Origin: Planctomyces sp. SH-PL62
Lineage (GTDB): Bacteria > Planctomycetota > Planctomycetia > Isosphaerales > Isosphaeraceae
DNA length: 64,000 bases
Direction: 5' to 3'
NCBI RefSeq assembly: GCF_001610895.1
Contig: NZ_CP011273.1
Coordinates: 124,001-188,000 of the forward strand
Positions 7,392-15,062 of this stretch are shown in pieces (position 1 is the first letter of the stretch; the number at the start of each line of letters is the position of its first letter). A program made the translations under genes and the position numbers. Under the pieces are notes generated by a model. That model was not told where the DNA came from. It did no database searches and saw nothing but the letters and a program-made list of their open reading frames with translations.

Positions 7392-8971
7392 TCAGGCTCC
7401 GTCCCCGCGAGGCACCCGGAAACGGCCCCAGTCGACGCCGAGCTTGCGCATCCGGGAGCGGAGGGTGTGGGGGTTCAGGCCGAGGATCGCGGCGGCGCCC
7501 TGGGGGCCCTCGATGCGTCCTCCGGCGCGGGCCAGGGCTTGCTCGATGTGGCGGGCGGCGGCCTCGTCGAGCGTCGCCAGTGGCGCCGAGGCCGAAGTCG
7601 CGGGGGCGGCCGTGGCCGGCGACGGGGAAGGCGGCAGCGGGCGCGCGGCCGGGGGGACGCCCAGGGCCCGGGCCACGTCCAGGCCGGACCCGTTGCCGAG
7701 GATCGCGGCCCGCTCGATCACGGCCGCCAGCTCGCGGACGTTGCCCGGCCAGGGGTACTGGAGGAGCAAGGCGACCTCCTCGGCGGTCGGCGAGAGGTGC
7801 GGCATTCCCAGTCGCCGGGCGGCGCGGCCGGCGAAGTGGGCGGCCAGCGCGGGGACGTCGGCCAGCCGCTCGCGAAGCGGCGGGAGGTAGACCGGGAAGA
7901 CGGCCAGGCGATACCAGAGGTCCTGGCGGAACCGGCCGTCGTGGACCATCGCGTGGAGGTCGCGGTGGGTCGCGGCGACGATCCGCACGTCCGCCCGCCG
8001 GGGCTTCTCGCCCCCGACCCGCTCGAACCAGCCGTCCTGGAGGATTCGCAGCAGCCGGACCTGGGCGGCCGGGGGGAGTTCGCCGCACTCGTCCAGGAAC
8101 AGCGTCCCGCCGTCGGCCCGCTCGAACCAGCCCTTGCGCTCGCCCACGGCCCCGGTGAACGACCCCTTCTCATGGCCGAACAGCTCGGAATCGACCAGCT
8201 CCGCCGGGATCGCGCCGCAGTTCACGCGGAGGAACGGCCCGGACGCCCGCCGGGATCGGGTGTGGATCGCCCTCGCGACGACCTCCTTGCCCGAGCCGGT
8301 CTCGCCGAGGATCAGGACCGGGGCGTCGGCCGTCGAGACCAGCTCGATCTGCTCCATGACCTCGCGCAGGCCGGTCTCCGCGCCGACGATCGAGCCGGCG
8401 AGGTCGTCGCGGCCGAGCTTCGATCGCAACGTGCGGTTCTCGGCCTCGGCCGCCTCGCGCAGCATGACCAGCTCGCGAAGCCGGTGGTCGTTCTCCACGG
8501 CCACCGTCAAGGGCTCGATCAGGGCCCGCACCAGCGCCTCATGCTCGGGGGTCGGCCGTTGGGACGGGCGCAGGGCCAGCAGCAGCACCGCCGGCGCCCC
8601 CTCCTCCGGGTCCAAAGGCGCCGCCAGCATCGCCCCCCCGCCCCGCCCGCGACCAGGCCCGGGAACCGCGCCGCGAAGCTCCGGCGCTCGGCCACTTCCA
8701 GCTCCCCCCGGCCGCACCAGTCCAGGAGCTTCGGCAGGATCTCCGGCATGATCGACGTCCGAGTCTCCCCTCGGGGCTCGCTCCCGCCCGCCGACTCGGC
8801 CGCCACCGTCTCCAGGAATCCGGCGGCCCGGTCCACCGACCGGATCGTCAGCGACTCCATCGGCAGAAGACCCGCCACGAGCGGAACGGTCTCTTCCACG
8901 GACTCCGCAAGCGTCCGGTGCCGCGAGACCACCCGCCAGATACTCAACAAGACCGGCCCGAAGTCGTTCAT
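7392..8971 (-). CDS. Sigma-54-dependent transcriptional activator (GAF-like, AAA+, Fis HTH), frameshifted at a G7 run
   Basis: The gene encodes an NtrC-class activator of about 526 residues. The start is ATG 8971 (MNDFGPVLLSIWRVV). The N-terminal sensory part (about 1-180) resembles GAF-type modules of FhlA-like regulators. The AAA+ domain has Walker A (GETGSGKE), the sigma-54 contact loop as ELFGHEKGSFTGA, Walker B (GGTLFLDE) and the R-finger region. The C-terminus is a Fis-type helix-turn-helix (GAAAILGLNPHTLRSRMRKLG). The reading frame changes at the run of seven C at 8633-8639 (G7 in the mRNA): one added G would join both halves exactly. A missed base in the assembly is the simplest reading; -1 slippage or a real mutation are alternatives. 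It likely acts on the -24/-12 promoter at 9125-9141. Confidence 0.8.
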
Positions 8972-8981
8972 CCACCCAGTA

Positions 8982-9042
8982 TGCCAGGAAATCTCACGGG
9001 TTGCCAGGAAATACCACGGGCACCCCCAGGAAATCTCACGGA
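8982..9042 (+). promoter_or_regulatory. Three ~20-bp direct repeats, probable activator-binding sites
   Basis: Three copies of CCAGGAAATCTCACGG-like sequence begin at 8984, 9004 and 9026 (spacing 20 and 22 bp, about two helical turns, so on one face of the DNA). The middle copy reads ATACCACGG instead of ATCTCACGG. They start 12 bp upstream of the sigma-54 activator's ATG on one side and lie 80-140 bp upstream of a -24/-12 promoter on the other, the usual place for upstream activating sequences of such regulators. Binding by this regulator is an inference. Confidence 0.6.
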
Positions 9043-9124
9043 TTGTGTGCCGCCGAACCGGCTCAAAGCGTGTAAAGTTTGCAATCTCGTGTCATTTAGT
9101 CAGATTTTGGCCTCGCGAGGTCGT

Positions 9125-9141
9125 TTGGCACTCCGCGTGCA
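9125..9141 (+). promoter_or_regulatory. Sigma-54 (-24/-12) promoter
   Basis: The sequence TTGGCACTCCGCGTGCA has GG at 9127-9128 and GC at 9139-9140 with exactly 10 bases between, plus TTGGCAC at -24 and a W after the GC, in good agreement with the sigma-54 consensus YTGGCACGrNNNTTGCW. Transcription would start near 9152 and run into the lipoprotein/DUF1559 unit. The adjacent sigma-54 activator gene and the upstream repeats support the call. Confidence 0.65.
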
Positions 9142-9198
9142 CTAGGCCCTCTCCGTACTCGACAATTCCTACCGACAAGGTTTGGTCGTGGGGTTTCG

Positions 9199-9744
9199 AT
9201 GGCTTTCAGGACGAGACGGACGATGAACACGGCGACGACGGTTCCGGGTGCGACGAGACGAGGATCGATCCAGGGTCGGTGGAATCCGACCCGCGTGGCG
9301 GCGGGCATGATGGGCCGGGCCGCGCTGGCGGTCATGGTCGCGGGGGCCTGGGGTTGTCGCGACGAGGGCGTCGTCCGCCCGGAGGCTCCAATCTTCCCGG
9401 CCCAGGGGAAGGTGACGTTCGAGGGCGAGCCGGCCGCCGGGGCGTTCGTGGTCTTCAGCCCCAAGGCCGCGCCGAAGTCCGGCCAGGAGGGCTTCACCCC
9501 CCGGGCGACCGTGCGGGCCGACGGCACCTTCTCGTTGACGAGCGCCACCGAGGGCGACGGCGCCCCGGCCGGCGACTACGCCGTGACCGTCCGCTGGTCG
9601 AAGCCGGTCAAGCAGGGGAACGAACTGGTCGCCGGCCCGAACGTGATCCCCAAGGCCTACGCCGACCCCGCGACCACGCCGCTGCAGGCCACGATCCGCG
9701 AGTCGGACAACGAGCTGGAGCCGTTCGCGATCACCAGGAAGTGA
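9199..9744 (+). CDS. Carboxypeptidase-regulatory-like lipoprotein
   Basis: The longest form has 181 residues. A lipoprotein signal is seen in MMGRAALAVMVAGAWGC, which suggests that translation may begin at ATG 9307 rather than 9199; the earlier start would give an unusually long n-region. The mature part opens PAQGKVTFEGEPAAGAFVVF and contains VRADGTFSL and GDYAVTVRW, the beta-sandwich pattern of planctomycete lipoproteins with a carboxypeptidase-regulatory-like fold. It is related to the lipoprotein at 29219-29650. It precedes a DUF1559 gene by about 130 bp and is probably cotranscribed from the sigma-54 promoter. Function is unknown; it may sit in a membrane as partner of the pseudopilin. 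Confidence 0.75.
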   Translation: MAFRTRRTMNTATTVPGATRRGSIQGRWNPTRVAAGMMGRAALAVMVAGAWGCRDEGVVRPEAPIFPAQGKVTFEGEPAAGAFVVFSPKAAPKSGQEGFTPRATVRADGTFSLTSATEGDGAPAGDYAVTVRWSKPVKQGNELVAGPNVIPKAYADPATTPLQATIRESDNELEPFAITRK

Positions 9745-9870
9745 GCGCGAACGCGGCCGAGGCCCGGCCGACCGATCGACGACAACATTGATGCTTTCAT
9801 GAAGACAATGACGCGTGACGACGAGTGTCGAGCGCGAGACCTCCGAACGACGGATATCCAGGAGTCCAGG

Positions 9871-10884
9871 ATGAACCGCCCCAGCCCCCGCCGCCCCCGC
9901 CCCGGTTTCACGCTGATCGAACTGCTGGTCGTGATCGCCATCATCGCGGTCCTGATCTCGCTCCTGCTGCCGGCCGTGCAGGCCGCCCGCGAGGCCGCCC
10001 GCCGCTCCCAGTGCGTCAACAACCTGAAGCAGCTGGGGATCGCGGTCCACAACTTCCACGACGTCAACAGCGAACTCCCCAGCAGCGTGCGGCCGACCGG
10101 CCTGACGACCCTGCCGCGAGTCGCGGCGCTCCTGGGCATGCTCAACTTCATGGAGCAGACGCAGGTCTACAACGCCCTGAACGTCGGCGTCACCTGGGGC
10201 GATCCGGTCAACCAGACGGCCGTCAAGACGCGGATCAACACCCTGCTCTGCCCCTCGACGCCCGCCGACCCGGGCCGGCTCGACGGCATCCCCGAGGTGC
10301 AGCCCTACTCGCCCAGCTGGACCGCCACCGTCGCCGCCGTCACCGACTACTCGCCGATCGTGGGCATCGACGCCCGGCTCGGCGGGGCGCCCTACAACGT
10401 GTTCGCGGCCGGCTCCACCCCGCCCGAGTCGCTGATCGTCAAGAACAAGAAGACCCGGCTGGCCGACGCCACGGACGGGCTCTCGAACACGATCGTCTTC
10501 GTCGAGTCGGCCGGTCGGCCGTTCGTCTACCGTCGCGGCGGCAAGGTCTTCGGCGCGGTCCCCGACCACCGCGTCAACTCCGGCGGCTGGGCCCGCCCGG
10601 CCAGCGACGTCACCCTCAACGGGTCGACGGCCGACGGCTCGGTCTTCCCCGGCCCGGTCGTCCTCAACGCCGCCAACGGCGAGAACGTCAACGGCCAGCC
10701 GTTCCCCCACCCCTACTACGTCACCGAGGGGACCGGCGGCCTCTTCTCGTTCCACTCGGGCGGGATCAACGTCCTGCTGGGCGACGGCTCGGTCCGGTTC
10801 GTCAAGGACTCGGTCTCGCTGCCGACCATCGCCGCCCTGGTCACCCGCGGCGGGGGTGAGATCGTCTCCGCCGACCAGTATTGA
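9871..10884 (+). CDS. DUF1559 type II/IV pseudopilin-like protein
   Basis: The 337-residue product starts at ATG 9871, which follows AGGAGTCCAGG; the open frame upstream is not needed. It carries the prepilin segment [20 protein letters not shown], then [15 protein letters not shown] and the C-terminal [16 protein letters not shown] motif of DUF1559. The central part (about 120-290) is a beta-rich variable region with [11 protein letters not shown], conserved in the family. It forms a unit with the preceding lipoprotein. A perfect 38-bp palindrome that probably ends the transcript lies about 45 bp downstream. Confidence 0.9.
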
Positions 10885-10927
10885 CATGGACGCCGAGGCG
10901 TCATCGCCCGACAATTCGTACCCAACG

Positions 10928-10965
10928 ACCAGTCCCCTCGCGTCGGCCGACGCGAGGGGACTGGT
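10928..10965 (+). terminator. Perfect 38-bp palindrome after the DUF1559 gene
   Basis: Two perfect 19-nt arms (starting ACCAGTCCCCTCGCGTCGG) meet without spacer, giving a very stable hairpin in RNA. No T-run follows. It separates the DUF1559 unit from the sulfate importer genes and is most likely a terminator, although a dyad this symmetrical could also bind a dimeric protein ahead of the sulfate operon. Confidence 0.55.
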
Positions 10966-11004
10966 TCCACGGCCTTCCGCCCCGATCGATTCAAAGGGAT
11001 CCCC

Positions 11005-12078
11005 ATGGAGTTCCGTCCCCCTCACGCCGCCCGGACCGTCCCGATCTCGATCTCGCTGTCGCTCGCGATGATGCTGGCGACGACGACGATCGGCTGCGGC
11101 GGCAAGCCCGTCTCGAACGCCGATTCGCTGAAGATCGGCGCGTACTCGGTGGTCCGCGAGGTCTTCCACGACGGCCTCATCCCCGCGTTCGCGAAGAAGT
11201 GGAAGGCCGAGACCGGCCGGGACGCCACGTTCGAGGAGTCTTACAACGCTTCCGGGGCCCAGGCCCGCTCGATCGGATCGGGCTTCGACGCCGACGTCGC
11301 GGCCCTCTCCCACGTGGGCGACATGGACCTGCTGGTCAAGGCCGGCAAGGTCGCCCCCGACTGGAAGGACGGGCCCTACAAGGGGATCCTGACCCACAGC
11401 CTCGTCGTCATCGGCCATCGCGCCGGGAACCCCAAGTCGATCCACGACTTCGCCGACCTGGCGAAGCCCGGCGTCGGCGTCCTCTACCCCGACCCCAAGA
11501 CGTCCGGCGGCGCCCGCTGGAACATCAACGCCATCTACGGCTCGGCGCTGCGGGAGGCCCGCGCGAAGGACGCGGCGAACCCGGACCTCGCCGCCGTCCG
11601 CGACCGTCTGAGGAAGGTGCAGTCGAACGTCGTCAACATGGACCAGTCGGGCCGCCAGAGCATGGCGTCGTTCTCCAGGACGGGGACCGGCGACGCCGTG
11701 GTGACGTATGAGAACGAGTTGCTGCTCCGGGCCAAGGAAGGGGACGCGATCCCTTACGTCGTCCCCCCGGCCACGCTCCTGATCGAGAGCCCGATCGCCC
11801 TGGTCGGGCCGTCGATCGCCAAGCACGGCAACGAGGAGCTGGCGAAGGCGTTCCTGGCGTTCCTGACCTCGGCCGAAGGCCAGCGGATCTTCGCCGAGTA
11901 CGGCTTCCGGCCGGTGAATCCCGAGGCCGAGGACGCGGTCGCCGGCCGCCCCGAGCCCACCGAGGTCTTCACGACCGACGACCTCGGCGGCTGGGCCGCG
12001 CTGGAGGAGGAGCTGTATTCCAGCGGCGGCCTCTGGTCGACCATCGCCGCCGAGGCCGTGCAGAACCGGGGGAAGTGA
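11005..12078 (+). CDS. Sulfate ABC transporter substrate-binding lipoprotein
   Basis: The 357-residue protein is a Sbp/CysP-type periplasmic binding protein of the sulfate/thiosulfate importer. A signal peptide ends in a lipobox (TTTIGCGG), so it is probably membrane-anchored. Family motifs are visible: EVFHDGLIPAFAKKW near the N-terminus, ESYNASGAQARSIGSGFDADV (ligand-binding part), and FLAFLTSAEGQRIFAEYGFRP near the C-terminus. It is the first gene of an importer operon; the permease gene follows after 3 bp. The mid-region PDPKTSGGARWNI matches the family's conserved P-x-P-K-T-S-G-G-A-R-W block, so assignment to this family is firm, although thiosulfate or another oxyanion could also be bound. 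Confidence 0.88.
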   Translation: MEFRPPHAARTVPISISLSLAMMLATTTIGCGGKPVSNADSLKIGAYSVVREVFHDGLIPAFAKKWKAETGRDATFEESYNASGAQARSIGSGFDADVAALSHVGDMDLLVKAGKVAPDWKDGPYKGILTHSLVVIGHRAGNPKSIHDFADLAKPGVGVLYPDPKTSGGARWNINAIYGSALREARAKDAANPDLAAVRDRLRKVQSNVVNMDQSGRQSMASFSRTGTGDAVVTYENELLLRAKEGDAIPYVVPPATLLIESPIALVGPSIAKHGNEELAKAFLAFLTSAEGQRIFAEYGFRPVNPEAEDAVAGRPEPTEVFTTDDLGGWAALEEELYSSGGLWSTIAAEAVQNRGK

Positions 12079-12081
12079 GCC

Positions 12082-12927
12082 ATGTCCGCCGGAATCTCCA
12101 CCCTCGCCCGGCGCAGGCCGCGGTTGCGTGAAGGGGCCCTGCTCCGCGGGGCCAGCCTCTCCTATCTGGGCGTCATGGTCGTCCTGCCGATCCTGGCGAT
12201 GGCCTGGCAGGCGGCCGAGCCCGGCCCGAGGGCCTTCTGGGCGGCCGTCTCCGAGCCCTACGCCTGGCACGCGCTGAAGCTCACCTTCATCACGGCCTTC
12301 ATTATGGTCTTCGTGGGCGCGGTCACGGGGACGGCGACGGCCTGGGTCCTCGTGCGCTACGAGTTCCCGGGGAAGAATCTGGTCAACGCCCTGATCGACC
12401 TGCCGTTCGCCGTGCCGACGGTGGTCACGGGGGTCATGCTGGTGGCCCTCTACGGGCCGTCGAGCGTCGTCGGCGCGATCGCCGGAAAGGCGGGCTGGAA
12501 GGTCATCTACGACCAGCCGGGCATCATCCTGGCGCTCCTGTTCGTGACCTACCCGTTCGTGATCCGGAGCGTCCAGCCGGTGCTCCTGGGGCTGGACAAG
12601 GCGGAGGAGGAGGCCGCGGCGACCCTGGGCGCGGGCCCCTGGACGACCTTCCTGCGGGTCACCCTGCCGACCCTCTGGCCCTCGATCCTGACCGGCTCGG
12701 CCCTCTCGTTCAGCCGGGCGCTGGGGGAGTACGGCAGCGTCGTGATGGTCGCCGGCAACCAGCCGCTGCTGACCAAGACGGCGCCCATCTACGTCTTCGG
12801 CGAGATCGAAAGCGGCAACCGTCACGGCGCCCTGGCCGTCTCGGCGGTCCTCCTGGCCTCGTCGCTCTTGATCCTCGTCATCCTCAACGCGCTGCAGCGC
12901 CGGGGGGGGAACCGTGATGCGACTTGA
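12082..12927 (+). CDS. cysT: Sulfate ABC transporter permease, CysT/CysU type
   Basis: The 281-residue membrane protein has about six hydrophobic segments and the EAA-loop of ABC importers (EEEAAATLGAGPWTTFLRVTLP, residues about 172-193), which contacts the ATPase. Conserved family stretches include LIDLPFAVPTVVTGVML and SRALGEYGSVVMVAGN. It begins 3 bp after the binding-protein gene and its end overlaps the second permease gene, so the genes are translationally coupled. With its partner it forms the transmembrane channel for sulfate. Confidence 0.9.
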   Translation: MSAGISTLARRRPRLREGALLRGASLSYLGVMVVLPILAMAWQAAEPGPRAFWAAVSEPYAWHALKLTFITAFIMVFVGAVTGTATAWVLVRYEFPGKNLVNALIDLPFAVPTVVTGVMLVALYGPSSVVGAIAGKAGWKVIYDQPGIILALLFVTYPFVIRSVQPVLLGLDKAEEEAAATLGAGPWTTFLRVTLPTLWPSILTGSALSFSRALGEYGSVVMVAGNQPLLTKTAPIYVFGEIESGNRHGALAVSAVLLASSLLILVILNALQRRGGNRDAT

Positions 12928-13822
12928 CGACGGCGAGGCCCCGACGGGCCCGGAACCGACCCCGACGCCCCGCCTCGTCGAATTCCCCGCGAGGGGGAAC
13001 GAGGCCCCGTCGTCGTGGGGGCGTCGGCTGCTGATCGGGGCGGTGCTGCTCTGGTTCGCGGCCCTGATCCTGATCCCCGGCCTGGCCCTGACGAGGCAGG
13101 CGGTGGCGGGGGGCCTGAAACCCCTGATCGCGGCCCTGGGCGAGCCGGCGGTGCAGCGGGCGTTCGTGATGTCGCTGGGGATCGCCCTGGTCGCCACGGT
13201 GGTCAACACGGTGTTCGGGATCGCCATGGCGCTGGTCCTGGTGCGGCAGCGGTTCTTCGGGCGGTCGCTGATCGACGGCGTGGTCGACATGCCGTTCGCC
13301 GTCTCGCCGATCGTGGCCGGGTTGATGCTGATCGTCCTCTACGGCCCCGAGAGCGGCGTGGGGGGCTGGCTGGAATCGCGGGGGGTGCAGGTCGTCTACG
13401 CCCTGCCGGGGATGATCCTGGCGACGATGTTCGTGACGGTCCCCTTCGTGGTCCGCGAGCTGGTGCCGATCCTCCGCGAGCTGGGCGAGGAGTACGAGCA
13501 GGCGGCGTACACGCTGGGGGCGTCCCGCTGGCGGACCTTCCGGAGCATCACCCTGCCGTCGATCCGCTGGGGCGTGGCCTACGGCGTGACCCTGACCGTC
13601 GCCCGGTGCCTGGGCGAGTTCGGGGCCGTCCTGGTCGTCTCGGGCAACGTGATCGGCCACACCCAGACGGCCACGCTCTACATCGCCGAGGGGATCGAGA
13701 GCTTCCATCCCGAGGGGGCCTACGCCGCCAGCCTGGTCCTGGCCGCGACCTCGTTCGTCCTGCTGGTCGGGATGGACCTCCTGCGGGCCCGCCTGGAACG
13801 GTCGAGGGAGGTGGAGTCGTGA
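12917..13822 (+). CDS. cysW: Sulfate ABC transporter permease, CysW type
   Basis: The product has 301 residues from ATG 12917 (a GTG at 12914 would add one residue) and overlaps the end of cysT by 11 bp. It has about six membrane segments and the typical [45 protein letters not shown] (EAA loop) and [15 protein letters not shown] blocks of CysW. It pairs with CysT in the importer. The N-terminal 35 residues are a cytoplasmic, Pro-rich tail. Confidence 0.9.
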
Positions 13823-13956: not shown

Positions 13957-15062
13957 GTGGCGATCGAGGTTCGGGGGCTTTCCAAGAAGTACGGCTCGTT
14001 CCAGGCGGTGAACGACGTCTCGTTCGAAGTCCAGGCGGGCCAGCTCGTGGCCCTCCTGGGGCCCTCCGGGTCGGGCAAGAGCACGATCCTCCGGACGATC
14101 GCCGGCCTGGAATCGGCCGACTCCGGCAGCGTCATGCTCACCGGAGAAGACGCGACCGCACTCCCGGTACAGCAACGCGGGGTCGGCTTCGTGTTCCAGC
14201 ACTACGCCCTCTTCCGCCACATGACCGTGCGCGAGAATATCGGCTTCGGCCTGAAGATCCGCAAGGTCCCCAAGCCCGAGATCCGCCGCCGCGTCGACGA
14301 GCTGCTCGACCTGATCCAGCTCGGCGGCTACGCCAACCGCTTCCCCTCCCAGCTCTCCGGCGGCCAGCGCCAGCGCGTCGCCCTGGCCCGCGCCCTGGCG
14401 CCGACCCCCAAGGTCCTCCTGCTCGACGAGCCCTTCGGCGCCCTCGACGCCAAGGTCCGCGACGAACTCCGCACCTGGCTCCGCCGGCTCCACGACGAGG
14501 TCCACGTCACCAGCCTCTTCGTCACCCACGACCAGCGCGAGGCCTTCGAGGTCTCCGACCAGATCGTCGTCCTGGCCGACGGCCAGGTCCAGCAGATCGG
14601 CCCCCCCAGACCCTCTACGAACGGCCCGCCAACCCGTTCGTCGCCGGCTTCCTCGGCGCCATCAACGTCCTCCCCCTCCGCTCGCTCAAGGCCGGATCGA
14701 TCGGCCGGGGCCCGGAGAGCTGGCTCGACCGCCCCCCCGCCGACCACGCCGAGGCCTACGTCCGCCCCCACGACCTCGACGTCTTCGCCGAGCGCGACGG
14801 CAAGCCCTACTGGCCCGCCACCGTCGAACGGATCACCCCCCTGGGGAGCGTCGTCCGGCTGGACCTCCGCATCGCCCCCGACCACCCCCTCCAGATCGAA
14901 CTCCCTCGCAACCGCTCCCTGGGCGTCGGCTTCGAATACGGCGACGAGGTCTACGTCTCCCCCCGACACCTGAACATCTATGACCGCGTCCAGGGCACCT
15001 TCCAGCCCGTCGACGTCCATCACGCCCTGGGCCTCTCCCTCCAGGAAGGCGCCGGCATCTGA
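13957..15062 (+). CDS. cysA: Sulfate/thiosulfate ABC transporter ATPase CysA, frameshifted at a C7 run
   Basis: Read with one base restored, the product has about 368 residues, the normal CysA length. GTG 13957 ([15 protein letters not shown]) was chosen because GAGGAG precedes it by 6 bp; earlier starts (GTG 13819, overlapping the cysW stop) add about 46 residues with no ABC character. Walker A is GPSGSGKST, the signature is [14 protein letters not shown] and Walker B is [12 protein letters not shown], followed by THDQ. At the seven-C run at 14601-14607 the frame is lost; adding one C gives [20 protein letters not shown] and the regulatory C-terminal domain up to TGA 15060-15062. Unrepaired, the domain would be replaced by a Ser/Pro/Thr-rich tail. 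A missed base in the assembly is likely. Confidence 0.85.

Follow-up and report, generated by a model that had tools for sequence, protein, structure and literature searches.

A putative sigma-54 control region for a planctomycete sulfur-acquisition operon under a divergent GAF-AAA+-Fis activator

We propose with considerable confidence that positions 8971-9199 of the window (the whole 64-kb stretch of DNA analysed here) control an operon for sulfur acquisition that depends on sigma-54 and on a divergently encoded GAF-AAA+-Fis enhancer-binding protein. Sequence comparison gives strong support to a dedicated activator that acts with sigma-54 through phased operators and a -24/-12 promoter; judged by gene neighbourhoods, its conserved partner is the sulfate ABC transporter, not DUF1559 alone. 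An earlier note on this DNA had described the region as a dedicated switch for a pseudopilin/lipoprotein pair. The switch itself holds up, given the activator, the operators and the promoter, their conservation and their joint loss in a congener, but its purpose was drawn too narrowly: the sulfate ABC genes that run from 11005 to about 14.6 kb had been overlooked, and a target limited to the pair is improbable.

Between the activator gene and the divergent lipoprotein/DUF1559 pair, three 16-bp units lie on the plus strand at 8984-8999 (operator 1, CCAGGAAATCTCACGG, a degenerate dyad of CCGTGA-N4-TCACGG), 9004-9019 (operator 2, CCAGGAAATACCACGG) and 9026-9041 (operator 3, CCAGGAAATCTCACGG). Their spacing of 20 and 22 bp, and their position ahead of the promoter, are as the earlier note reported. 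Plain direct repeats were ruled out, because relatives show full dyads of the form CCGTGA-AATA-TCACGG; the phased units that the note had seen are therefore better described as degraded inverted repeats. Compared with the best-kept unit, CCGTGAAATATCACGG, the window's CCAGGAAATCTCACGG has retained its right arm while the left arm has partly decayed, and the window operators are among the more degenerate ones. A triple-dyad scan of the region scored 34.7, and shuffles reached 27.2 at most. The whole genome holds 48 CCAGGAAATNNCACGG sites at ≤2 mismatches, clustered at the window locus only; no second cluster at this threshold was found in the home genome, and single sites of the repeat type occur in isolation elsewhere (for example, at C1:1172363).

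Downstream of the operators, a predicted -24/-12 sigma-54 promoter, TTGGCACTCCGCGTGCA, occupies 9125-9141 on the plus strand, with an expected transcription start near 9152. Its GG and GC elements are exactly 10 bp apart, as previously claimed, and it is near consensus with one mismatch. Because TTGGCACTCCGCGTGCA is the sole match to TGGCAC-N5-TTGC at ≤1 mismatch in the 64-kb window, the other two DUF1559 modules of the window lack such a site, again in agreement with the earlier reading. In high-GC DNA a single one-mismatch match is weak evidence alone, and its weight comes from positional conservation, the site being kept in place in relatives. Sigma-54 itself, which the earlier reading presupposed, is encoded by one rpoN gene in the genome (PF04552 at C1:1936486-1936962).

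The upstream gene (7392-8971, minus strand) does encode a sigma-54 activator (bEBP), with a GAF-like N-terminus, an AAA+ sigma-54 interaction domain (PF00158, 1.5e-68, 230.2 bits versus a cut-off of 20.2), an AAA+ lid (PF25601) and a Fis-type HTH (PF02954, 28.8 bits versus 22). The window and every orthologue inspected have GSFTGA at the GAFTGA motif, which thus retains its Phe and Thr. What the earlier note did not report is that the gene is split over two frames in the window, the N-terminal 110 residues lying in the other frame, with a C7 tract (8633-8639) near the junction. Orthologues are single open frames (the gene is intact in Paludisphaera soli and Aquisphaera insulae, for example), which points to either a sequencing error (indel) or a young frameshift; if the frameshift is genuine, the switch may be broken in the window strain. 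NorR, NifA and NtrC identities were rejected, as the protein fell below each curated equivalog cut-off (326.6 versus 476 bits for NorR, for the frameshifted window copy; 326.8 versus 528.85 for NifA; 312.5 versus 558.6 for NtrC, with a GAF fold and not a receiver). A structure model of the N-terminal domain of an orthologue showed a GAF fold (pLDDT 88.6), and its only clear sequence match in the PDB, a weak one, was the GAF domain of NifA (9qq6_C, E 7.5e-4), an activator that differs in serving nitrogen fixation targets. Structure searches with the model returned generic GAF domains and no telling ligand, so we infer the signal from the neighbouring genes, by which sulfur limitation is probably the activating cue.

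Downstream of the promoter, six genes follow on the plus strand. The first encodes a small predicted secreted protein or lipoprotein (9199-9744) for which no Pfam or NCBIfam match was found; G028-G032 and G040 have orthologues at the corresponding position. The second (9799-10884) encodes a DUF1559 pseudopilin-like protein (PF07596, 3.9e-45, 155.4 bits) with a prepilin-type N-terminus (N_methyl) and an H-X9-DG motif, assigned to a sulfur-linked subfamily by tree and subfamily profile. The sulfate ABC transporter is complete, each part scoring over its curated cut-off: an Sbp-type substrate-binding protein (11005-12078; TIGR00971, 195.0 bits, cut-off 155.5), the permease CysT (12082-12927; TIGR02139, 286.3, cut-off 246.1), a permease in the CysW position (12914-13822; TIGR00969, 294.1, cut-off 240) and the ATPase CysA (matched part 13963-14628; TIGR00968, 357.5, cut-off 342.75). 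Gaps from the lipoprotein gene through DUF1559 and sbp to cysT are 54, 120 and 3 nt, and CysT and CysW overlap by 14 nt. The CysA frame apparently shifts past the ATPase core (14550-14650), a second possible indel of the region. A long, very stable stem-loop without a T tract lies between the DUF1559 and sulfate-binding genes (10927-10966, plus strand); most relatives have one at the equivalent place, with a different sequence and likewise no T tract. It may serve in the processing or stabilisation of the RNA, and it could also uncouple the transporter from the promoter.

We compared this arrangement across a set of 45 family genomes. The sulfate-binding protein occurred in 30 of them and true activator orthologues in 10; as many transporter-bearing members are without the activator, it is not universal. 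Seven genomes besides the window have the activator divergent from the sulfate operon, and in 7/7 three units precede a -24/-12 site, at spacings of 19-21 and 21-22 bp (20 and 22 in G031, G029 and G028, as in the window; 19 and 22 in G032, G001 and G002; 21 and 21 in G003). Where the sites fell inside the 200 nt scanned, the triple scores of these family genomes were higher than in any of 100 shuffles; the G001 array lies further upstream, and its sites were read directly. In G001 and G002, the promoter stands directly before the sulfate-binding gene, with DUF1559 absent between them. The congener G030 keeps the order lipoprotein-DUF1559-Sbp-CysTWA, and there the activator orthologue, the operators and the -24/-12 site are all absent, a single natural instance in which the three were lost together. 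The search of related genomes that the earlier note had suggested thus came out in its favour, both in the recurrence of repeats and promoter and in their disappearance with the activator.

Other family loci vary on this layout. In G040, sulfatases, TauE and DUF1559 flank the activator, and the sulfate operon lies about 10 kb off. G005 carries an exact operator palindrome upstream of metY-metX (L113 6532-6547, G005:C54), after a hydrogenase-like gene and about 1 kb from the called start. A second, broken activator copy in G003 (L116 7241-8767, G003:C384) lies with sites resembling the operator and, at 7973, a -24/-12-like site, before a cysteine dioxygenase gene.

The association extends beyond the family. 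A species-genome scan for the activator family gave 43 loci from 43 species of several phyla, and the activator was found beside sulfate, sulfonate or other sulfur transporters in Planctomycetota, Gemmatimonadota, Latescibacterota, Calditrichota, Myxococcota and proteobacterial genomes. Sulfate ABC genes lay inside the fetched flank in 30/43 species and other sulfur-type transporters in 8/43, namely SsuA-type ABC genes in four (L123, L128 with SsuD, L140 and L159), TauE-type permeases in three (L121, L132 and L143) and a DASS symporter in one (L133); the assignments of L121, L132 and L159 rely on their similarity to neighbours that were tested, and L140 is slightly under the SsuA cut-off. No sulfur-type transporter gene was seen in the flank of the remaining five loci. 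In many loci, including L144 of Gemmatimonadota and L143 of Thiobacillaceae, a -24/-12 site lies 125-200 nt from the activator start. In a second, evenly sampled set of 392 phylum genomes, whose species may overlap with the 43-locus sample, the family occurred in 23; among the 22 genomes other than the window's own, a sulfate-binding gene lay within 1.5 kb in six, an ABC ATPase in three and a cysteine dioxygenase in four (L215, L216, L218 and L219). By comparison, the similar flanks of 15 other GAF-type activators contained no sulfur gene except for one weak ABC-ATPase match.

The earlier note had also suggested that regulation may mark out some members of the DUF1559 family. In a tree of 52 proteins, whose unlinked sample covers the best-scoring part of the family only, a single clade (99/98) united 10/10 sulfate-operon copies, 4/8 other activator-linked copies and one unlinked protein, from a locus (L180) with DUF1559 and a distant sulfatase-type match, where the activator was not found. 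A profile of the clade picked out a single clear orthologue in most of the genomes tested and two in G040, at E ~1e-130 to 1e-176 against ~1e-72 for the next match; searches of G005 and G027 found none. By this comparison the operon DUF1559 is a member of a single, clearly separate subfamily, most of it linked to sulfur genes or to the activator. The clade bears out the suggestion in part, but orthologues located elsewhere in G001, G002 and G011 have no operator or -24/-12 site in promoter position, so the link between DUF1559 and regulation is strong and not strict.

We suggest the following mode of action. Activator dimers would bind the three dyad operators, which lie about two helical turns apart with centres about 160, 140 and 118 bp upstream of the predicted start (9152). 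An active hexamer assembled there would remodel sigma-54 RNA polymerase waiting at 9125-9141, and lipoprotein, DUF1559, sbp, cysT, cysW and cysA would be co-transcribed and made. The GAF domain is the probable sensor of sulfur status, so that a shortage of sulfate or reduced sulfur would switch the operon on. Operator 1 lies 12 bp from the activator start codon, so its occupation probably limits the activator's own expression too.

Could the activator serve the lipoprotein/DUF1559 pair only, with the sulfate genes a separate unit under their own promoter? The pair stands closest to the promoter, the 120-nt gap with its strong stem-loop splits it from sbp, and DUF1559 adjoins the activator in G005, L127, L129, L130 and L136. 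We nevertheless consider this reading improbable: the promoter of G001 and G002 feeds the sulfate-binding gene without DUF1559, the sulfate transporter is the activator's partner across phyla that have no DUF1559, and neither a sigma-70-like promoter nor a T-tailed terminator was found at 8900-11100. On the G001 and G002 arrangement and the other phyla, DUF1559 was rejected as the main target. Still less credible is that the repeats and the promoter-like site are chance or functionless relics. The frameshifted activator and the operators with one arm partly lost would fit relics, whereas seven family genomes and several phyla share the spacing and position, and shuffles rarely reached the observed scores.

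It is also conceivable, if unlikely, that the same switch answers another cue, such as excess sulfate, a toxic oxyanion (sulfite, selenate or chromate) or redox/NO. NorR of Escherichia coli, which responds in the last way, shares the GAF-AAA+-Fis HTH order, a position divergent from its target and three enhancers before a sigma-54 promoter (PMC2941729), and TauE and cysteine dioxygenase are also among the activator's neighbours. NorR differs in its operator and in its targets, which serve NO reduction and not sulfur uptake. What the neighbourhoods have in common is chiefly genes for uptake and scavenging (sulfate ABC, SsuA/SsuD, sulfatase), expected to be needed under sulfur scarcity, and we retain sulfur limitation as the probable signal of the switch.

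The best-known regulators of sulfate uptake in model bacteria are LysR-type. Among them is CysB of enterobacteria and pseudomonads, which switches on genes for sulfate uptake when sulfur is limiting, is sigma-70 dependent and is unrelated to the window activator. Where sigma-54 is known to act in sulfur metabolism, the main case is the use of sulfones. SfnR of Pseudomonas putida, according to work cited in PMC8234197 and PMC13352529, is a sigma-54-dependent activator in the sulfate-starvation response; it controls sulfone-use genes and is itself CysB-regulated, and the passages searched do not describe control of a sulfate ABC transporter. The passages searched of three sigma-54 regulon surveys (PMC12316311, PMC3162934, PMC4641369) likewise contain no activator-sulfur association. 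An account of the activator family was not found in the literature; subscription journals were mostly outside the search, so its novelty is unproven.

It is an even call whether these activators form an undescribed, multi-phylum clade of GAF-type bEBPs that acts through sigma-54 as a master regulator devoted to sulfur acquisition, with a DUF1559/lipoprotein subfamily recruited in Planctomycetota as a functional component of the uptake of sulfate or sulfate esters. If so, this would be another widespread mode of sulfur-uptake control. The activator's operator offers a handle for regulon prediction, and sulfur uptake becomes a testable role for one subfamily of DUF1559, a large family of unknown function.
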